Origin: a virus
DNA: 30,587 nucleotides
Virus record (IMG/VR): IMGVR_UViG_3300026457_000119
Coordinates: 1 to 30,587 of that record
Direction: 5' to 3' (one strand)
This document shows, piece after piece, positions 8-30,587 of this stretch (position 1 is its first letter; every line of letters starts with the position of its first letter). The notes beneath the pieces were generated by a model. That model saw only the letters and a list, made by a program, of their open reading frames with translations. It was not told the origin of the DNA and did not search any database. Made by a program: the position numbers and the translations under genes.

Positions 8-32
8 AAAAAAGGCTACCGAAGTAGCCTTT
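8..32 (-). terminator. Rho-independent terminator of the tmRNA gene
   Basis: Read on the minus strand, a 9-bp stem (AAAGGCTAC / GTAGCCTTT) closes a TTCG tetraloop and runs straight into a T tract. It lies just after the coding piece of the tmRNA and is the natural end of that transcript. Confidence 0.9.
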
Positions 33-350
33 ACTATTTTGGGTTATAAGGTATAGCTACCCCAGACTTGCAGTTTCTTAGGCTGCTAGTGCAACACGAC
101 CGCCTACAGTGTTACCTGTGAAGCTTAGTGCTGCGAAGTCAAATGAATCGTCGTTTGCGATTACTTTTTTTGCGTCTACGGCCGGGAAACCCCAACCCTA
201 CGGTTTCTGCCTTACCGTGCTGTCCACTTCTCTACTCTTTGCCCTGTCGAAACCAGAATTCACCCCCACCTAAATATACCTTATACACTTAGGTGGAGGT
301 GGTGGGCCTCGAACCCACGTCCAGAACACTTTTCCTTCCGCTTCATACAG
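33..350 (-). ncRNA. ssrA: Circularly permuted (two-piece) tmRNA
   Basis: Transfer-messenger RNA, which rescues stalled ribosomes and tags the nascent protein for proteolysis. The order is permuted. The acceptor piece comes first: T arm GTGGG-TTCGAGG-CCCAC at 302-318, then CACCTCC at 295-301, discriminator A294 and CC. A short intervening hairpin follows (ACCTAA...TTAGGT, about 268-294). The coding piece starts at 267 with GGGGGTG, then AATTCTGGTTTCGACAGGG, close to the E. coli tmRNA 5' end. The 7-bp acceptor helix forms between the two pieces and carries a G-U third pair, the alanine identity signal. The resume region TAATC-GCA-AAC-GAC resembles the E. coli one. The genome encodes CCT rather than CCA after the discriminator, so the tail would be completed enzymatically. 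Exact piece ends are approximate. Permuted tmRNA is typical of alphaproteobacteria, cyanobacteria and some betaproteobacteria. Confidence 0.92.
78..158 (-). other. tmRNA tag reading frame (26 codons plus TAA)
   Basis: From the resume codon GCA at 158-156 the frame reads ANDDSFDF, continues through a glycine-rich middle, and ends RVALAA before TAA at 80-78. The hydrophobic ALAA end is the usual ClpXP-type degron. ANDD is a typical alphaproteobacterial start. At 26 residues the tag is about twice the common 10-15. Confidence 0.82.
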
Positions 351-361
351 CAATAACTTAC

Positions 362-390
362 ATTATATATTTATTCTTCTTCTAAGTCAA
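362..390 (-). promoter_or_regulatory. Sigma70-type promoter of the tmRNA
   Basis: On the minus strand TTGACT (390-385), a 17-base spacer and a perfect TATAAT (367-362). It sits inside the 3' end of the upstream 175-residue gene and would start transcription near 355, just before the acceptor piece. A late-type AATAAATA lies within the spacer (368-375), so both early and late expression are conceivable. Confidence 0.75.
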
Positions 391-2121: not shown

Positions 2122-2196
2122 TGGTGCGCTCGACGGGAATCGAACCCGCCAACCAGAGATTTAGAGTCTCCTAACCGACCGCCAGTAACCGAGCGC
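2122..2196 (-). tRNA. Phage tRNA with CUA anticodon (amber-decoding)
   Basis: On the minus strand the acceptor stem GCGCTCG pairs with CGAGCGC, followed by A and an encoded CCA. The T arm is GCGGG-TTCGATT-CCCGT and the variable loop has 5 bases. The anticodon arm is GGAGA-CTCTAAA-TCTCT. With T at position 33 the anticodon is CTA with A37, which reads UAG. The D arm is unusual: position 8 is G rather than T, and only about three pairs form. Leu or another identity cannot be derived from shifted frames, because no other T33 fits a 7-base loop. The charging amino acid is unknown. Only one TAG stop is used among the 47 genes of this window, which agrees with amber decoding. Confidence 0.68.
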
Positions 2197-8445: not shown

Positions 8446-10003
8446 CGTAGGTCACATCGAATGAGATGTTACCTGTGGCTCCATTACCAACCGGATTCTT
8501 ATAACTTAGCACCACAGTGTCGACTCCAGAGTCTACATCGTTGTCTCTGATCTCTGCTGAGAATTCAAATTGTGTCATAATCATTCCTCCGATTGATGTT
8601 GATGATGTTGAACTATATGAATAATTATCAACAAGATTCACCGCAGTAAAATCTTCGTCGATAGTCATTGTAAGTTGTCCTATGCGTGTGTGACTTGAAA
8701 GTGTTAACACATAATTGATGACTGCATATCTGTTCAGTGCAGAAAATACTGCAACAGGTCTAAAGCTGTCTGACAGATAAATTTGAGAATAGTTTCTATC
8801 TACAAATTCAGCCTTGTCAACATTATATGCTTCGCTGACAGCATTGACAGTATTAACAGAAACTATGCCTGCTGCCTGTTGTCTATCACTAGAGCAGTCA
8901 ATTAATAGGTTTCCAGTCTTTTCTCCAAAGTAAACTATTGGATGTGTTGGATCAGCTGCTGTGGCTGTATCGTTGCCGCAATTCTTAAATCTGCAACGAT
9001 GTAGGATTGTTCTTCTACCTGCAATAGATCGCAGTGCTTGTCTTGCGATTTCTTCAAATTCGCAATCGTTGATATACCATTTGTTGTCTTGACCAGTGAT
9101 TCCGTCTATGTATATAGAAGTATGGTTTACTAAAAACTTACAATTGATAAATCCAACTACTGTTTCAAATGCTACAGTCTGTGAACATTTAATACTCAGT
9201 GGATTAGAATCAAATATACATGACTTAAACTCAACGCCATTTACTTTTGTTCCTGCTAGGTTGTTCAACCAAACTACAGCGGCCGCGGCAGTTGAAAGGG
9301 TTACTGCGTCACCTAAACGATACTCGCCTTTGAATCGAACTCCTTCGAGTTTACTGTTGGCCAACCCAGAAAGAATTAGAGATCCGGACGATCTTAAAAT
9401 TGTAAAGTTAGATAACTCAACATTCTGAGGACGATTAGAACTGTCAAACCCTGCTAGTTCTGTTCCATCGCTGGTAATAAATCGAATGTTGTTGGCTCCG
9501 ATGTTGATAACGGCACCAAGTTGTGTTTCGCCGCGAATGATAGCGTTACTTGGAATCGCCAAGCTACCGGAGATAAGATATTCTCCGTTTGGTATCATTA
9601 AAACTTTTTTGTAGTTTGAATTTGCATTTCTGAACAGCTGAGTAAAAGCTGTTTGGAATATTTCAGTGCAGTCTGTAGAACCGTCGCCGATAGCGCCGAA
9701 GTCTGTTATGCTTACATATTCGTCTAACTTTGATTGTAAACTTCTCGGAATCGAAAGAGTTACGGCTGTGTCATCTGAAGCAAACTGATAGCTAGATGCA
9801 AGGTCTAGTATGTTATCGTGTTCTGTAATGATCTTAGTGTTTCCTACATAAGGAGCACCTTCTGCTACAGAACCATTACCGATGTAAAGTTCTTGTGTGT
9901 CAATAGCCCACGCAAACTCTGCAGAGCTGAGCTGTGGAATACCGCTATTTGAGTTTTTTTGTCCTCTGCGGACTTGTATTTTAGATATCTGAACGACAGC
10001 CAT
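8438..10003 (-). CDS. Tail fibre or spike with pectate-lyase-like beta-helix
   Basis: 521 residues. The N-terminal 60 residues (AVVQISKIQVRRG, FAWAIDTQELYIGNG) are the attachment motif seen at the start of many phage receptor-binding proteins. Residues 95-400 form a right-handed beta-helix of the Pectate_lyase_3 type, opened by SITDFGAIGDGSTDCTEIFQ. The C-terminal 100 residues are a separate beta domain that could bind the receptor or drive trimerisation. Enzymatic activity against surface polysaccharide is possible but no catalytic residues can be named. A GATAAATA late-type box lies upstream at 10027-10034. Confidence 0.85.
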   Translation of the reverse strand: MAVVQISKIQVRRGQKNSNSGIPQLSSAEFAWAIDTQELYIGNGSVAEGAPYVGNTKIITEHDNILDLASSYQFASDDTAVTLSIPRSLQSKLDEYVSITDFGAIGDGSTDCTEIFQTAFTQLFRNANSNYKKVLMIPNGEYLISGSLAIPSNAIIRGETQLGAVINIGANNIRFITSDGTELAGFDSSNRPQNVELSNFTILRSSGSLILSGLANSKLEGVRFKGEYRLGDAVTLSTAAAAVVWLNNLAGTKVNGVEFKSCIFDSNPLSIKCSQTVAFETVVGFINCKFLVNHTSIYIDGITGQDNKWYINDCEFEEIARQALRSIAGRRTILHRCRFKNCGNDTATAADPTHPIVYFGEKTGNLLIDCSSDRQQAAGIVSVNTVNAVSEAYNVDKAEFVDRNYSQIYLSDSFRPVAVFSALNRYAVINYVLTLSSHTRIGQLTMTIDEDFTAVNLVDNYSYSSTSSTSIGGMIMTQFEFSAEIRDNDVDSGVDTVVLSYKNPVGNGATGNISFDVTYGV

Positions 10004-10026
10004 ATAGATAAATTCCCGTTATAGGG

Positions 10027-10034
10027 TATTTATC
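10027..10034 (-). promoter_or_regulatory. Late-type box GATAAATA before the tail fibre
   Basis: One-base variant of TATAAATA on the minus strand, about 24 bases before the tail-fibre start and overlapping the end of the nuclease gene. The same GATAAATA variant occurs before two other minus-strand genes. Confidence 0.55.
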
Positions 10035-10731
10035 TTAATGAGTTGTAGTATTCCTCTACCTTCTCAAGCCACAGATCTTGATATTTGTTGAAATCGCTAG
10101 GCCATAAATCGAACTGCTGATATTCGCAGTTGCGACTACACATAAACACATGCCCTTCTCGGATGTCTGTGCCGTAGACTTCATTATGTGCTAGTATATA
10201 GGCTACCAACTGCATTTTGTAATCGTCAACCCATTCTTCTTTTTTAGGTTTATTTGTTTGCTTATAATCGCATACGCTCGGATTATCTTTGTAGACAGCT
10301 ACAAGATCTGTAGTTCCGGAATACAAGCCCGGAAAGTATAAACTCTGTTCCATTGCCCATACTTCGTTTACATAAGCAAGCCCGTTTATAATAATCTGGT
10401 CTGCCATTTTATTAGCTTGGACATGCACAGGATTATTACCTGGTTGCCTTTGTATGCCTGCAATAAATCTTTCTAAATTGCTGTGCATGGCAGTTCCAAC
10501 ACCAGCAGCTTCTGTAGTAATCTGTTTGGCTTTTTCTTCGCCTATTCTCTTTTTCCATTCGTTCAAATGAGTCATATCCTTAGTAGCACTAAGAATAGTA
10601 GTAACAGAAGGAAGGCTTTCTCCGTCTGGAGTTAGATAAACTCGTTTACGGGTAACAGGGTCATTGACCTGTTGACAGTTCTTATATTGGAACTTTTCAA
10701 CAAAGGGGGGTGGATTTAATTGTATAGTCAT
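10030..10731 (-). CDS. PD-(D/E)XK (RecB/Cas4-like) nuclease
   Basis: A 233-residue nuclease of the PD-(D/E)XK superfamily found in many T4-like marine phages. The motifs in order are the helix GVGTAMHSNLERF (His), SLYFPGLYSGTTDLVAVY with the metal-binding Asp, then VCDYKQTNKP giving the D-x-K core (DYK), and a late tyrosine-rich segment (YKMQLVAYILAHNEVYG). No four-Cys iron-sulphur cluster of Cas4 is visible. The likely job is processing of DNA ends in replication or recombination. It starts at ATG 10731, nine bases after a sigma70-like -10 and without a ribosome site, so the mRNA may be almost leaderless. Confidence 0.85.
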   Translation of the reverse strand: MTIQLNPPPFVEKFQYKNCQQVNDPVTRKRVYLTPDGESLPSVTTILSATKDMTHLNEWKKRIGEEKAKQITTEAAGVGTAMHSNLERFIAGIQRQPGNNPVHVQANKMADQIIINGLAYVNEVWAMEQSLYFPGLYSGTTDLVAVYKDNPSVCDYKQTNKPKKEEWVDDYKMQLVAYILAHNEVYGTDIREGHVFMCSRNCEYQQFDLWPSDFNKYQDLWLEKVEEYYNSLR

Positions 10732-18332: not shown

Positions 18333-19034
18333 TTATCTAACTGTTGCTAACTTAAAAAATCTAAGTATGTTGATATACATCCATCCTATATCAAACTCAT
18401 ACCATTTCTGACTAAATCTAGCATTGGCACCATCTGCGTGATGATTGTTGTGCAATTCTTCCCCGCCAATCCACAATGCCCAGGGCCATAAATTGCGACT
18501 AGTGTCTTTGGTATCTGTATTACGATATCCCCACCAATGAGCTAATCCGTTTACTACTCCGGCGGCCCAGAACGGTATCCATATCATTTGGATACCCCAC
18601 ACTAACAGTCCTACAGGTCCAAAAAGAACAAGGTCTATGACCAACATCAATAGAATCCCTAAGCGACTATGTGCGGAGTAAATGTTACGCTCTAACCAAT
18701 CATTAGGAGTTCCAACTCCTAGTTTTTCGACCATGGCTGTATCTTTGCTGGCTTCGTGATACAATAATGCGCCACCGAATAACACTTTCTTAATTCCATA
18801 AATTTGCGGACTGTGAGGATCAGAGTCAGTGTCGCTGGCCTGATGGTGCTTGCGATGTATTGCTACCCATTGTTTAGTAACCATACCTGTAGTCAACCAT
18901 AACCAAAAACGCATTATATGATTAACTACCGGATGGAAAGCTACTGCTTTATGTGTCTGCGATCTGTGCAAATAGAGCGTGACACAAGCAATGGTAATTT
19001 GAACCATTACCAAGGTGTATATAAATTCAATCAT
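18333..19034 (-). CDS. Membrane fatty-acid (acyl) desaturase
   Basis: 233 residues from MIEFIYTLVM at 19034, whose ATG overlaps the previous TAA (TAATG). A longer form from 19067 is less likely. All three histidine boxes of delta-9-type desaturases are present: HRSQTH (23-28), HRKHH (60-64) and EELHNNHH near residue 200. They bind the diiron centre that inserts a double bond into acyl chains. Hydrophobic helices flank the boxes, as expected for an integral membrane enzyme. It is shorter than typical 260-300-residue bacterial enzymes. It ends an operon with isocitrate lyase and the aldolase-family gene. A role in remodelling membrane fluidity or lipids during infection is inferred. Confidence 0.9.
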   Translation of the reverse strand: MIEFIYTLVMVQITIACVTLYLHRSQTHKAVAFHPVVNHIMRFWLWLTTGMVTKQWVAIHRKHHQASDTDSDPHSPQIYGIKKVLFGGALLYHEASKDTAMVEKLGVGTPNDWLERNIYSAHSRLGILLMLVIDLVLFGPVGLLVWGIQMIWIPFWAAGVVNGLAHWWGYRNTDTKDTSRNLWPWALWIGGEELHNNHHADGANARFSQKWYEFDIGWMYINILRFFKLATVR

Positions 19035-19687
19035 TAATAATTCCCTGAGCTTAGAACTATCTTGCAAATATGTTCTAATCTCTCTATATGTTCAAAAGAC
19101 CGCCATGGCGTTGAATCTATAGCCACGACCCCATGTCCTTTAATTCCAACTATATCATACTTAATCTCTCCAGTATTTGGATTTAAACCCAACTTTTCGT
19201 GACATTGATCGCCTAATTCTTGTGATATCGGCGGAACATCACCTACATTGGGTGCTACTCTAGTATAACGACTAAGTTCTGGAAAATCTTTGGCCAATTC
19301 ACTTAGTTCGATTCCGGCATGCATGGCAGCAACGATATAGGTAGGATGGATATGAGTAACTACACGAACTTCATCTTGGTATATTTCACGTTGTAGACCA
19401 AAGTGCAGAGGCATTTCACCTGTGGGCTTCAATCCTATACTGATATCGCTGTAAGGCATTTCCTCCCAACTATACAACATTTCTGCTGTGCCTGCACCGC
19501 TATTGATACATTTGTTTATTTTAATCTTTTTAAACTGATCAGGTTGCATTGTCTGTTTGCGCACACCACTAGGAGTAACATAGAAATGATCTCTATCGTG
19601 ATGACGAATAGAGATGTTGCCATCTCTACTCGTAATCCAATTGCGCTTATATGCTTCTACTAGAATATCGCAAATGGTTTCTAACAT
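19034..19687 (-). CDS. Class II aldolase/adducin-family protein
   Basis: 217 residues. The metal-site motifs of the family are in order: GNISIR near the N terminus, the catalytic Glu in KPTGEMPLHFGLQ, the HxH pair in VVTHIHPTYIV, and a third His in GIKGHGVVAI. Members cleave sugar phosphates (fuculose- or rhamnulose-1-phosphate), epimerise ribulose-5-phosphate, or dehydrate methylthioribulose-1-phosphate. The substrate cannot be chosen from sequence alone. Its ATG overlaps the isocitrate-lyase stop, and its stop overlaps the desaturase start, so three metabolic genes are translated as one block. Confidence 0.85.
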   Translation of the reverse strand: MLETICDILVEAYKRNWITSRDGNISIRHHDRDHFYVTPSGVRKQTMQPDQFKKIKINKCINSGAGTAEMLYSWEEMPYSDISIGLKPTGEMPLHFGLQREIYQDEVRVVTHIHPTYIVAAMHAGIELSELAKDFPELSRYTRVAPNVGDVPPISQELGDQCHEKLGLNPNTGEIKYDIVGIKGHGVVAIDSTPWRSFEHIERLEHICKIVLSSGNY

Positions 19688-20895
19688 TAGTGAAATTGCT
19701 CCGCTTCTGTAGAACTCTTGTTGGCCACTGTGCTGGTAGCACCAACTGCTTCACTGATTAGATCAAAGTAACCAACGCCAACTTCACGTTGATGTTTAAC
19801 GGTTGTGAAGCCACGAGCCTGGGCGGCAAATTCACGTTCCTGCATTTCACTGTAGCCAGCCATACCACGTTGTTTGTATGCTTCTGCTAATTCAAATGTT
19901 GCTAGGTTAACACTGTGGAATCCTGCTAGTGTAATGAATTGGAACTTATATCCTAATTCACCTAGCTCGCGCTGGAATGTTTCGCACTCGTCTACAGATA
20001 AAAACTTACGCCAATTAAAACTAGGGCTGCAATTATAAGCCAACATTTGGTCTGGAAACTCAGCATGTATAGCATCGGCGAATTTCTTAGCCTGTGCAAT
20101 ATCAGGTGTGCTAGTTTCGAACCATAGGAGATCAGCGTAAGGGGCATAAGCAAGACCTCGGCTAATACATGCATCAAGCCCATTTTTAAATTTGTAAAAA
20201 CCTTCTTCAGTGCGTTCATCGATAATAAAATCCTTGTCTAACGGGTCATGGTTGCTGGTAATCAACGTTGCTGATTCTGCATCTGTTCTTGCTAGAATAA
20301 CTGTATCAACACCTGCTACATCTGCGGCCAATCTCGCAGCCTGTAGGTTACGAATCGCTTGGCTAGTAGGAATTAGAACCTTACCGCCCAAGTGACCGCA
20401 TTTCTTTTCACTTGATAATTGATCCTCAAAGTGAACTGCGGCTGCACCTGCTTCGATCATGGCCATCATCAATTCGTATGCGTTTAACGCACCACCAAAG
20501 CCTGCTTCAGCATCAGCAACGATTGGTAGGAAGTAATCTGTAGTTACATTACCTTCTGAGTATTCGATTTGATCAGCACGACGGAAAGCATTGTTGATCT
20601 GTTTAACGATTGTAGGAACAGAGTTTACTGGATATAAACTTTGATCAGGATATGTTTGACCTGCGGTGTTAGCGGCTGCGGCCACTTGCCAACCCGATAG
20701 GTAAATTGCTTTGAGTCCTGCTTTGGCATGTTGGACTGCTTGTTGTCCACTGTATGCGCCTAGCGTATTAACGTATGGTTCTGTAGCTAGAAGTTCACGT
20801 AGTTTGGTAGCACCACGTTTGGCTAAAGTGTGCTCAATTTGTAATGAGCCTTGTAACTTGCGGACTGTGTCTTGTGTGTAATTGCGTTTTTTCAC
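19687..20895 (-). CDS. aceA: Isocitrate lyase
   Basis: 402 residues from a GTG at 20895 with AAAGGAGATAT upstream. It cleaves isocitrate to succinate and glyoxylate, the entry of the glyoxylate shunt. Signature [11 protein letters not shown] has the catalytic Cys at 166. The Mg2+ site is [10 protein letters not shown] (D128, E130). Also present are [25 protein letters not shown] and [10 protein letters not shown]. It aligns closely with E. coli AceA but lacks its first 25-30 residues, so the core is intact. It heads the minus operon behind a CATAAATA box. Finding it on a T4-like phage is unusual. No malate synthase is seen in the window, so glyoxylate may go elsewhere, for example to glycine. 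Confidence 0.95.
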
Positions 20896-20919
20896 GATAT
20901 CTCCTTTGCTGTGATGCAG

Positions 20920-20927
20920 TATTTATG
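20920..20927 (-). promoter_or_regulatory. Late-type box CATAAATA before isocitrate lyase
   Basis: One-base variant of TATAAATA on minus, about 25 bases before the GTG start. It suggests late-phase expression of the aceA operon. Confidence 0.5.
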
Positions 20928-20942
20928 GGTCTTGTAGAGGAC

Positions 20943-20971
20943 TTGACAAATTAATTAACTGAGTGTATAAT
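20943..20971 (+). promoter_or_regulatory. Perfect-consensus sigma70 promoter, likely leaderless
   Basis: TTGACA at 20943-20948, exactly 17 bases, TATAAT at 20966-20971. The ATG of the HAD gene follows after only six bases, so the transcript should begin at or next to the start codon. Confidence 0.88.
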
Positions 20972-20977
20972 AGCTGT

Positions 20978-21562
20978 ATGAAAAATAAAATCATTTTAAC
21001 AGACGCAGACGGAGTTCTGCTAGATTGGGAATACGCTTTCTCAGTTTGGATGGAACAACATGGTTTCCAAAAAACCGAGGATCACCAATTCAAATACGAT
21101 ATTGGCAAACGCTATGGTATTGAAAAAGAGCAGGCCAAAAAACTCATAAAGATGTTTAATGAATCGGCACATATGGGTTTCTTACCGCCCTTGCGTGATG
21201 CTATGTTTTATGTAAAACGGCTACACGAAGAACACGGTTATGTGTTTCATTGTATCACATCTATGAGTTCAGATGAGAATGCACAGGAACTACGCAAAAT
21301 GAATCTGCGTAAGTTGTTTGGAGAAACTGCATTTACCAAATTTATTATACTAGAAACAGGTGCTGATAAAGACGAAGTATTGGATAAGTATCAAGACAAA
21401 GGCTATTGGTGGATTGAAGATAAAATTACCAATGCTGTAGCTGGTCAAGATCGAGGTCTAAAAAGTTTACTTATGGAACATGGACACAATATGGATTTTG
21501 AACATCCGGAAATTCCTAGAGTAAAGAACTGGAAAGAAATCTACGAGAGAATCGTAGGCTAA
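20978..21562 (+). CDS. HAD-superfamily phosphatase (5'-nucleotidase-like)
   Basis: 194 residues starting MKNKIILTDADGVLLDWEYA. The DxDGVL motif I (D9 and D11) is the HAD nucleophile and acid. The Ser/Thr motif II is FHCITSM, and WWIEDKITNA supplies the acidic motif IV. Size and cap resemble the 5'(3')-deoxyribonucleotidase group found in many T4-like phages, which dephosphorylate dNMPs, but the substrate is not certain. A GTG five codons upstream lies on the -10 box and is rejected. It is transcribed early from a consensus promoter without a leader and is followed by the riboswitch and terC. Confidence 0.8.
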   Translation: MKNKIILTDADGVLLDWEYAFSVWMEQHGFQKTEDHQFKYDIGKRYGIEKEQAKKLIKMFNESAHMGFLPPLRDAMFYVKRLHEEHGYVFHCITSMSSDENAQELRKMNLRKLFGETAFTKFIILETGADKDEVLDKYQDKGYWWIEDKITNAVAGQDRGLKSLLMEHGHNMDFEHPEIPRVKNWKEIYERIVG

Positions 21563-21570
21563 ATATTTTC

Positions 21571-21655
21571 GGGGAGTAACCAACCTGTAGTTAGGGTTCT
21601 ATATATCGTCAACACGGCGAAACAGCGTCCGGTATATAGACAAAGAGGTGAGACC
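21571..21655 (+). promoter_or_regulatory. yybP-ykoY-type (Mn2+) riboswitch upstream of terC
   Basis: The two conserved loops of this family are recognisable. One is GGGGAGTAAC at 21571-21580. The other is CAAAGAGGTGAGACC near 21640-21655. Between them are ATCGTCAACACGG and a helix formed by TCTATATA with TATATAGA. The family binds Mn2+ and typically precedes mntP, P-type ATPases and terC/alx genes, exactly as here. No terminator follows, only AAAGGA before ATG 21677, so control is probably translational. Confidence 0.82.
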
Positions 21656-21676
21656 ATAACTTTTTAAAGGAAAATT

Positions 21677-22369
21677 ATGGAACTCTTTACACTCCAAGCC
21701 CTTTGGGCATTTCTCGCTATCATTTTGATAGACATTGTATTAGCTGGTGATAACGCTCTTGTTATCGGAATGGCGGCTAACAAATTACCAGACCACTTAC
21801 GCAAGAAGGCAATCTTCTGGGGAACGTTCGGAGCCATTGCTATACGATTTGTATCAGTTGCGGCACTAACATACCTATTAATGATCCCAGGACTTAGGAT
21901 CATAGGTGCTCTAGCACTGATATGGATTGGCTGGAAACTGGTATTTGATCACGGCGAACACAACATCGAAGCCAAGGACACCTTCTGGGGTGCAATTGGA
22001 ACTATTGTGGTCGCTGATGCTGTCATGGGCATAGACAATGCCTTAGGCATTGCCGCAGCCGCCAATGGTAGTTTTATTTTAGTCGCCGCTGGATTGTTGA
22101 TCAGTGTGCCAATCATATTGTTTGGTGCTACCATGGTCAGCAAGATACTACAACGTTGGCCGGACACAGTATTTCTAGGATCATTTGTGTTATTTGCTGT
22201 AGCATTCTTAATGGCTATGAAAGAACCATTAATGGCTGCATGGTGGGCAGGATTAGTTCCTTGGGTGGCCGCAATACTACCTTGGGTAGCTGCATTGGTT
22301 ATTACTGCTGTTCAATACAATCAGGCAAGATTGCATCTTCACAAAAAGTATTTGTTTAGAAAGAGTTAA
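21677..22369 (+). CDS. terC: TerC-family membrane protein (probable Mn2+ exporter)
   Basis: 230 residues with about seven membrane helices. Both family signatures are present: IVLAGDNALVIGMA near residue 22 and DAVMGIDNALGIAAAA near residue 115, each placing a conserved Asp-Asn in a helix for metal transport. TerC proteins export Mn2+, in part to metallate exported enzymes. The gene has its own AAAGGA site and sits behind the Mn2+ riboswitch. It is transcribed from the HAD promoter or an unseen one. Its stop overlaps the convergent gene by 14 bases. Control of host manganese during infection is a reasonable inference. Confidence 0.93.
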   Translation: MELFTLQALWAFLAIILIDIVLAGDNALVIGMAANKLPDHLRKKAIFWGTFGAIAIRFVSVAALTYLLMIPGLRIIGALALIWIGWKLVFDHGEHNIEAKDTFWGAIGTIVVADAVMGIDNALGIAAAANGSFILVAAGLLISVPIILFGATMVSKILQRWPDTVFLGSFVLFAVAFLMAMKEPLMAAWWAGLVPWVAAILPWVAALVITAVQYNQARLHLHKKYLFRKS

Positions 22370-28660: not shown

Positions 28661-28678
28661 TTGTAATCTCCGATTGAA

Positions 28679-28686
28679 TATTTATC
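28679..28686 (-). promoter_or_regulatory. Late-type box GATAAATA
   Basis: Minus-strand variant of TATAAATA, 18 bases before the ATG at 28660, followed by CGGAGA. It heads the operon running down to about 25541. Confidence 0.55.
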
Positions 28687-28694
28687 GGTTAAAT

Positions 28695-29915
28695 ATGTTT
28701 ACTATGATCAACAAAGAACCTTTCAAACAATTAATCAAAGACCTTAAAGATTCCGGCAAATATCGTGTATTCAACGACATTGTTCGCGAGCGTGGTGAAT
28801 TCCCCAAAGCTATATGGTATGGGCCCTATAACATTAAAACTATAGTTAATTGGTGCTCAAACGATTATCTAGGTATGGGGCAGAACAAAGTAGTGCTAGA
28901 TGCCATGCACACAGCTCTAGACCAAACAGGGTCGGGTTCTGGCGGAACTAGAAATATAGGCGGACATAGTCATTATCATGTGGCTCTAGAACACGAACTA
29001 GCCATACTGCATAACAAAAGTCGTGCCCTGCTGTTTAGTTCAGCATATGTGGCCAACGAATGGACACTGATCAGCCTTGCTAAGATCGTGCCAAATATAC
29101 AGTTTATTTCTGACAGTAAAAACCATAACAGTTTGATCGTAGGCATACAACACAGTCGAGCAGCCAAACAGATATTCGAACATAATGATCTAGAAGATCT
29201 AGAAAACAAATTAGCTCACAGTAAATTAGCAGGACATACTCCGTGTATAGTATTTGAGTCAGTGTATTCTATGGACGGTGATGTAAGTCCTATCAAGCAG
29301 ATCTGCGATCTAGCAGACAAATATCAAGCTATAACTTACATCGACGAAGTTCATGCTGTGGGACTTTACGGCACACACGGTGGCGGCAAAGTTGAAGAAC
29401 TAGGTTTAGAAAATAGAATCGATATCATTAACGGAACACTGGGCAAAGCATTTGGCGTCCAGGGCGGTTACATTGCTGCTGATGCAGATGTTATTGATGC
29501 CATCCGTTCAGTAGCTGCTGGATTTATCTTCACCACATCAATGAGCCCTGTGGCCTGTGCTGGTGCTCTAGCCGCAGTTAAGTATCTTAAAGATCATAAT
29601 GAAATACGAGACAAGCATCAAGAACGTGCTAGAAAACTCAAGCATAGATTAAATGCCAACGGTATTCGAGTCATGGAATGTTCTACTACACACATCGTTC
29701 CTGTGCTGGTAGGCGATGCTGTTAAGTGTAAGGCAGTGTCAGATATGCTGTTAAACGAATACAACATCTATGTGCAGCCTATCAACTATCCTACAGTAGA
29801 TGTGGGAACGGAGCGGTTACGTTTTGCACCTACTCCGTTTCATGATGATGGAATGATTGAAGATCTTATTTCTGCTCTGAAGGCTTCGTTTGCGTATCAC
29901 CAGGTGCAAGTCTAA
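28695..29915 (+). CDS. hemA: 5-aminolevulinate synthase
   Basis: About 406 residues from [12 protein letters not shown]; another ATG lies three codons later, and the TTG at 28674 is unlikely. This PLP enzyme condenses succinyl-CoA and glycine to 5-aminolevulinate, the first step of heme and (bacterio)chlorophyll synthesis in alphaproteobacteria. Diagnostic stretches are [52 protein letters not shown], the PLP-lysine motif [22 protein letters not shown], and [10 protein letters not shown] followed by [11 protein letters not shown]. These fit ALAS better than 2-amino-3-ketobutyrate CoA ligase. Full length. There is no ribosome site or clear promoter just upstream. The 3' end overlaps the cupin gene convergently by 50 bases. 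Confidence 0.94.
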
Positions 29916-30252
29916 AACGGTCTTCAATAATATCTGTAGTTCCTACTTCAAATATCACAGTGTTGGGTTCTAGAGCTTCCACTTGATGGGGGCTCATTTC
30001 TGCAAAGTCTGCGGTCTTGCCTGCTTCTAGCTCAGCCTGTTTCAATTCGCCTGTGCCTACATCAGTCCAGGTTACACGAATCTTTCCTTCGTTGACAAAC
30101 CAGCTCTTGCGTTTATCTCTATGAAACACTAGGCTAGTCTTTGCGCCCACACGCTCAAATACTAGGATCTTTCCACAGTATTTTTCGTTGTTGGCCCAGA
30201 CTAATTCAAAGCCCCAGCCCTTGTCTAACTTTCCTGTTGGTTGTTGGTTCAT
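29866..30252 (-). CDS. Cupin-fold protein (mannose-6-phosphate-isomerase-like)
   Basis: 128 residues. [20 protein letters not shown], then [20 protein letters not shown] and the second-half [17 protein letters not shown] give the two cupin motifs. These resemble the small C-terminal cupin of mannose-6-phosphate isomerases, with FHRD-K...W and PHQ as metal-site candidates. The substrate is unknown. Similar single cupins are common in marine T4-like phages and could modify sugars of glycans. It overlaps the clpP stop by four bases (ATGA). Confidence 0.78.
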
Positions 30253-30587
30253 GGTCTTTTCTCAATAATTTTATCAATTAGCCCGTATTCTAGAGCTTCT
30301 TCTGCACTCATAAATTTATCTCTATCCATATCACGTTCGAATTCTTCATAGGTCTTACCTTGGGTATTATGCTTGACATAAAGTTCTGTAAGACGTTTCT
30401 TGATGTGCATGATCTCTTTGTATGAAATCTCAATGTCAGATGCCATACCTCTTGCACCGCCCGATGGTTGGTGTATCATATGACGAGCATTGGGCAGCAT
30501 AAAACGTTTGCCCTTAGCACCTGCATTGGCTAGAAACGATCCCATTGAACAGGCCTGACCCATGACATAGGTAGCCACATCACATTT
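30249..30587 (-). CDS. clpP: ClpP protease subunit, C-terminal part (cut by window edge)
   Basis: The frame is open to the right edge, so the N-terminal part is missing and no start is called. The visible 112 residues include the catalytic Ser in [10 protein letters not shown], the catalytic His in [10 protein letters not shown], and the Asp region [20 protein letters not shown]; all three triad regions are intact. ClpP forms a barrel-shaped peptidase fed by ClpX/ClpA-type unfoldases. Phage copies are known in marine T4-like phages, possibly for head maturation or turnover. It may also degrade proteins tagged by the phage tmRNA. Confidence 0.93.

Follow-up and report, generated by a model that had tools for sequence, protein, structure and literature searches.

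A phage-encoded permuted tmRNA with a long tag that contains a conserved peptide module

We have analyzed a tmRNA gene on the minus strand at one end of a 30,587-bp stretch of viral DNA, here called the window, which is a complete IMG/VR record. Covariance models place the gene in the Rfam families tmRNA_permuted (RF04321; 352->78, 118.4 bits against a cut-off of 47, E 8.4e-23) and beta_tmRNA (RF01850; 404->7, 103.3 bits against a cut-off of 84). An earlier note on this DNA had proposed a phage-encoded, circularly permuted tmRNA and had named a covariance-model search as the check; both matches exceed their gathering scores and bear the proposal out. Agreement with RF04321 covers a score above the curated cut-off, the acceptor-first order of the pieces, a 7-bp stem with G3:U70, the discriminator A, an alanine resume codon and a hydrophobic, degron-like tag end (GCA...ALAA-TAA). 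The betaproteobacterial type is indicated by the score above the cut-off of RF01850, a model with idiosyncratic helices. This label leaves the host unfixed, because tmRNAs of Xanthomonas and Pseudomonas phages match the beta model too. ARAGORN made no tmRNA call in the window, where the gene reaches the contig edge, and called a permuted tmRNA with the identical tag in five contigs near-identical to the window.

The layout of the gene is given in Table 1. The acceptor piece in front of the coding piece, the 7-bp acceptor helix with a G-U third pair, the long and distinct 26-codon tag ending in ALAA, and a promoter and terminator belonging to the gene had all been described in the earlier note, and all are found. 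The coding piece runs from GGGGGUG through a conserved CUGGUUUCGACAGGGC and ACAGCA into the tag reading frame, and the mature 3' end is predicted to lie downstream of position 78, close to the terminator. Promoter-like sites are expected by chance at about 1.7 per 950 bp on either strand, so position carries most weight in the promoter call. By analogy with known permuted tmRNAs, the spacer between the two pieces should be cut out by enzymes of tRNA processing. The last base of the CCA end is not encoded (position 291 is a U), so a host CCA-adding enzyme would have to finish it. The G-U third pair is no peculiarity of this RNA, being the universal identity element of tmRNA and tRNA-Ala and an ordinary AlaRS signal.

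Table 1. Positions of the tmRNA gene parts and of the other features discussed
Feature	Position	Strand	Detail or basis
sigma70-like promoter	362..390	-	TTGACT 390-385, 17-nt spacer, TATAAT 367-362; 11/12 consensus matches
acceptor piece of permuted tmRNA	292..352	-	covariance model, sequence, helix covariation
inter-piece helix, 5' strand UGCUGU	352-347	-	within acceptor piece
T-arm	322-304	-	within acceptor piece
3' acceptor strand CACCUCC	301-295	-	followed by discriminator A 294 and encoded CC 293-292
intervening transcribed spacer, 24 nt	268..291	-	sequence
coding piece	78..267	-	covariance model, sequence, ARAGORN in near-copies
5' acceptor strand GGGGGUG	267-261	-	start of coding piece
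inter-piece helix, 3' strand ACAGCA	223-218	-	within coding piece
tag reading frame, 26 codons, ANDDSFDFAALSFTGNTVGGRVALAA	78..158	-	GCA resume codon at 158, TAA at 78
conserved module inside tag, codons for SFDFAALSFTGNTVG	102..146	-	core FDFxA[M/L]SFTGNTV
intrinsic terminator, hairpin AAAGGCTAC-TTCG-GTAGCCTTT, then T run	11..32	-	sequence; paired equivalents in relatives
amber-suppressor-type tRNA, anticodon CTA	2122..2196	-	about 1.8 kb upstream of tmRNA
ClpP fragment, model positions 78-182	30249..30578	-	cut by contig end; about 30 kb from tmRNA
tmRNA of Xanthomonas phage XacN1	AP018399 37201-37621		beta model
tmRNA of Pseudomonas phage UF_RH6	OQ383211 near 53247		beta model
tmRNA of Alcaligenes phage QDWS595	OK149171 near 55250		beta model
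second long-tag family, AKASTGEVTVSGKNVKFSARTVKAESFAV and variants	L336-L354, L035, L073

The window tag is nearly three times the usual length owing to an extra peptide stretch. Relatives were gathered by degenerate-pattern scans of IMG/VR. Scans by structure only returned many tags of 10-14 aa, plus tags of 26-29 aa that share the FDF...SFTGNTV core of the window. A scan for this peptide returned at least 84 contigs, each with a permuted tmRNA called by ARAGORN or with a copy so truncated or changed that no call was made. Besides the window, at least 120 IMG/VR contigs carry the module, the five near-copies among them, and the set comprises at least 82 distinct tmRNA sequences and at least 52 distinct tags of 26-33 aa. 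The shared module can be written approximately as AN..TFDFxAMSF[T/S]GN[T/S]V and is followed by a variable linker and then by a normal ALAA-type degron. Two tmRNA copies (L207, ~9942-10311; L199, ~423-503) have a broken or altered frame 5' of an intact module, which reflects either sequencing or assembly error, or decay.

The conserved tag module appears to be the new part of this system; the permuted phage tmRNA, the G-U pair and clpP are not new. We found no published description of the module. It was not found in 50,697 phage records, where the only matches were chance ones to Porphyromonas primase. An origin as a copy of a phage protein or of a protein of solved structure was rejected, as no other open reading frame at the module loci holds a copy and a sequence comparison with the PDB gave no meaningful match. 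Capture from a host was tentatively rejected on partial, overlapping samples, in which exact degenerate patterns matched 0 of 369 genomes from the class and 0 of 399 from the order of a Rhodocyclaceae genome.

The acceptor stem and T-stem were compared among the module tmRNAs that lent themselves to parsing, 73 distinct sequences. In 73/73 the acceptor stem has its full seven pairs; eight different stem sequences occur, and at pairs 4-6 both partners have changed in a compensatory way. None of the 73 departs from G3:U70 or from the discriminator A, and the T-stem is paired at 5/5 positions, again with compensatory changes. The inter-piece helix covaries, as UGUUGU/CAACA in 66 and UGCUGU/CAGCA in 7. 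The CCA end is encoded without its last A in 13 of the 73, the window among them. The terminator hairpin differs in sequence and keeps its pairing in 76 of 82 distinct relatives. From this comparison, we regard the window gene as almost certainly a functional permuted tmRNA.

Upstream, the module phages have in common the gene order DUF454, a PAAR or endolysin gene, glutaredoxin, NrdB and NrdA, and many have AhpC and AhpD-like genes downstream (names from reading the sequences). The window shares the gene order of these phages. Its NrdA is nearest to that of Xanthomonas phage X1 (60%) and one of its virion proteins to those of Synechococcus myophages (59%), and by these sequences the phage looks T4-like. 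By DNA, no nearest phage was found for the tmRNA region, and a first genome scan with the exact T-stem of the window gave no match. In an NrdB tree, the 73 module phages for which an NrdB sequence is available all fall into one group, within which NrdB identity goes as low as 78.7%; their sister is contig L102, which shares the gene order but has a plain tag of 10 aa, ANDNVYALAA. The simplest reading of these sequences is that the module was gained once. The window also carries host-like metabolic genes at 18333-22369 and 28674-29915, which encode a fatty acid desaturase, a class II aldolase, isocitrate lyase, TerC and a class I/II aminotransferase similar to 5-aminolevulinate synthase.

The earlier note had set the tmRNA beside a phage clpP, and this part fails: the ClpP fragment lies at the opposite end of the record. 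ClpP as an adjacent partner was rejected, since the two genes are 25-37 kb apart in related phages and a ClpP-family gene occurs in 13 of 37 module-phage records, an indicative count because the records are fragments. A search of these 37 fragments for SmpB or SspB genes of the phage gave none, an equally indicative result that implies the use of host SmpB. A coupling to amber suppression, in which readthrough would produce nonstop complexes, is appealing for the window and for some relatives but was rejected as not general, CTA tRNAs occurring in 3 of 120 module loci. TAG is the stop of 1 of the 43 gene calls in the window. In XacN1 two CTA tRNAs lie directly upstream of an unannotated tmRNA, and in contig L163 a CTA tRNA abuts a tmRNA with a 28-aa tag.

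Selection on the tag was assessed with each half of the module used alone as the scan query, in order to avoid circularity. In the scan with the N-terminal half, ANA[D/N]TFDFxA, complete tmRNAs continue as SF[T/S][G/S]N[T/S]V, two of them with NF in place of SF; the other matches were one 509-aa protein family and contig-end truncations. The scan with the C-terminal half, SFTGNTV...AA-stop, returned tmRNAs in which the upstream residues are almost always [F/Y/N][D/E][F/V]x[A/G][M/L/F/I]. In the halves not used for selection, MSFTGNTV has a pN/pS of 0.166, and the ten codons that precede it have one of 0.44. A pattern-selected set of 27 distinct module core sequences shows third-position changes at most codons. 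Of the distinct module tags that the central-pattern scan gave, 46/46 close with TAA, and tag lengths vary in whole codons. Taken together, the sequences make it very likely that the module is under selection at the peptide level.

These data bear on two other readings of the extra codons. The long tag could be merely tolerated, its extra codons a passenger in an ordinary supplementary phage tmRNA; ordinary tags of 10-14 aa are indeed common in phage tmRNAs, and the sister phage has such a tag beside the same neighbour genes. This reading is already disfavoured by the low pN/pS over the module in the unselected halves, by a frame that survives whole-codon length changes and by retention of the module despite the deep divergence of its phages, and we consider it very unlikely. 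A similarly slim chance is given to conservation of the tag region for RNA structure or RNA binding, with the peptide incidental. Tag frames of tmRNAs normally overlap a helix, and in the 27 pattern-selected cores the Asp codon is always GAC and the Ser codon in SFTG always AGC, even though alternative codons were permitted in the scan. The four-fold sites of the Thr, Gly, Ala and Val codons nevertheless vary freely, most changes are either synonymous or conservative (T/S, M/L), and the frame stays open. The fixed GAC and AGC codons are a hint of some RNA-level constraint in addition to selection on the peptide.

Two further contigs with 29-aa tags of unrelated sequence prompted a dedicated scan, which returned 21 contigs with tags of the form A[K/N/T]ASTGEVTVSGK[N/G/S][V/I]KF...[F/L]AV. 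These tags are 28-29 aa long and end in AV, not LAA; 19 of the 21 contigs were called as permuted tmRNA, the acceptor stems are fully paired and varying in the 13 that were parsed, and the loci are without the neighbouring genes of the window. Phage tmRNAs have thus acquired conserved long tags more than once. Further long tags that differ in sequence, among them AKTFEFKTFSVEEVASNDFAFELAA and AKASTFKYMQVPASVALAAIDGEFALAA, occur in the phage contigs L024, L027, L163, L074 and L116; L027 and L163 have neighbour genes in common with the window.

The comparative analysis demonstrates a tmRNA fold under selection and the reading frame of the tag, together with conservation of the module as a peptide; processing, charging, tagging, degradation and a reader of the module are steps that we infer. 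The gene probably encodes a working beta-type phage tmRNA that relies on host machinery, with the module as an extra recognition element that would alter the fate of tagged proteins. The phage would transcribe one precursor RNA, from which host tRNA-processing enzymes would excise the 24-nt spacer and complete the CCA end. Host AlaRS would charge the tmRNA through G3:U70 and the discriminator A, and host SmpB would bring it to ribosomes stalled on broken mRNAs, where alanine and 26 residues would be appended to the stalled chain. The C-terminal ALAA would serve as an ordinary Clp-type degron. The module of the TFDFxA[M/L]SFTGNTV class, conserved across a T4-like phage clade, would be an added peptide recognition element that changes the handling of tagged proteins in infection; its most likely partner would be a protease adaptor or some other reader of phage or host origin.

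The main rival to this scheme is a bipartite or doubled degron, in which the extension spaces an SspB-type contact (A-A-N-x-x-x-F/Y, with the tRNA alanine counted) from the ClpX contact (LAA), or adds a second ssrA-like tag (...RG-AANESRFALAA, ...V-ANDSKFALAA). Delivery to host ClpXP would be improved and no phage reader would be needed. N at tag position 2 and F/Y at position 6 are kept in most module tags, and each of the 52 distinct tags listed closes with ALAA, AVAA, AFAA or VLAA. The tails 3' of the module are variable (SGKSKVALAA, GGRVALAA, ANDSKFALAA, RGAANESRFALAA), and many, of the form AANESRFALAA or ANDSRF/KFALAA, equal a whole ordinary beta tag. Hersch et al. reportedly found in 2004 that the spacing of SspB and ClpX determinants alters delivery in E. 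coli. Conservation is, however, strongest in SFTGNTV rather than at the putative SspB and ClpX contacts, the aromatic position is occupied by N or D in some tags, and a second AANxxxF is missing from many tails; we therefore rate the bipartite degron as unlikely. A ClpX grip effect (PMC6677533) was also considered and rejected: aromatic residues could matter, but beside the substrate these tags, like ordinary ones, have mainly small or polar residues.

Within the preferred scheme of an added recognition element, a dedicated reader for the module is a tentative proposal, and the phages may read or use the label otherwise than their hosts do. More speculative, and in our view doubtful, is the idea that the trans-translation tag has been turned into a phage signal, with at least two unrelated long tags read by phage-specific factors and stalled proteins rerouted; if true, such proteins would take a fate chosen by the phage rather than plain degradation by the host. 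That the phage re-labels stalled proteins on its own terms, as the earlier note suggested, is unproven. It gains indirect support, since the extra tag segment is conserved as a peptide across a phage clade, is absent from the sampled bacterial genomes and keeps its degron end.

Tags of tmRNA are usually regarded as short, near-universal degradation labels. A strongly constrained module amid fast-changing linkers and covarying stems suggests that this tag does more than end in LAA. The question of why phages carry tmRNA can now be tested directly, with a GFP reporter and a pull-down (peptide AANADTFDFSAMSFTGNTV), and the module would also supply new orthogonal tags for degradation or targeting.

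Compared with known permuted tmRNAs, the window gene resembles RF04321 and RF01850 in gene order, G3:U70 stem, T-arm, GGUUUCGACA, inter-piece helix, tag frame and degron end, and differs in its 26-aa tag with a conserved internal module. Measured against ssrA-type tags, the degron end fits, whereas the length and the module depart from the short form. The single permuted model RF04321 originates from PMC11915505, where the commonest tag length is 10 aa and the tmRNA database holds 79 phage sequences. Chromosomal beta permuted tmRNAs exceeded the RF01850 cut-off in 10 of 250 genomes; nine carry 10-aa tags of the ANDERFALAA type and the tenth call is doubtful. For one chromosomal beta-type permuted tmRNA (L315, 1452-1812), ARAGORN offers an odd 28-aa tag, GNQPSNLQVMQQFDVPTPANGDQYLNVA, probably because it took the wrong frame.

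That a phage-borne permuted tmRNA is exceptional, as the earlier note implied, is not supported: for phage genomes, the available text of PMC9004378 gives a count of 53 two-piece tmRNAs, of which 50 are marine or aquatic, and well over 100 further viral contigs were found here. The same text describes a two-piece tmRNA in methylophage Melnitz, with an ssrA assigned to an alphaproteobacterial lineage and a glutamine riboswitch. Melnitz and the pelagimyophages resemble the window in having a permuted tmRNA in a T4-like aquatic phage, and unlike for the window, no long conserved tag is described for them in that text. Mycobacteriophage DS6A also carries a phage-borne tmRNA derivative, which is the tRNA domain alone, without a tag frame (PMC4131195), whereas the window tmRNA has a long one. 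When expressed, a DS6A-like tRNA-domain RNA inhibits tmRNA (PMC4131195, PMC11915505), and the window RNA might, as proposed for the tag-less DS6A RNA, act as a competitor, titrating SmpB or AlaRS of the host so that its trans-translation is blocked. We hold this to be extremely unlikely, as the window RNA, unlike that of DS6A, has kept everything needed for productive tagging: the resume codon, the frame, the degron, G3:U70 and the discriminator A.

Other close counterparts are unannotated permuted tmRNAs that we detected in isolates, namely XacN1 (tag ANANTFDYALAA), UF_RH6 (ANDTSFDVRLAA) and QDWS595 (ANDNVYAAAA). A GOLLD RNA (RF02032, 227 bits; L299 3071-3484) lies about 1 kb downstream of the tmRNA in XacN1. 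Chromosomes of Pseudomonas and Xanthomonas typically carry a one-piece tmRNA, whereas the phages UF_RH6 and XacN1 have the permuted beta form, which may therefore travel with phages. All three isolate tmRNAs are of the beta permuted type like that of the window, but are without the SFTGNTV extension; the XacN1 tag has an ANANTFD start in common with the long module tags.
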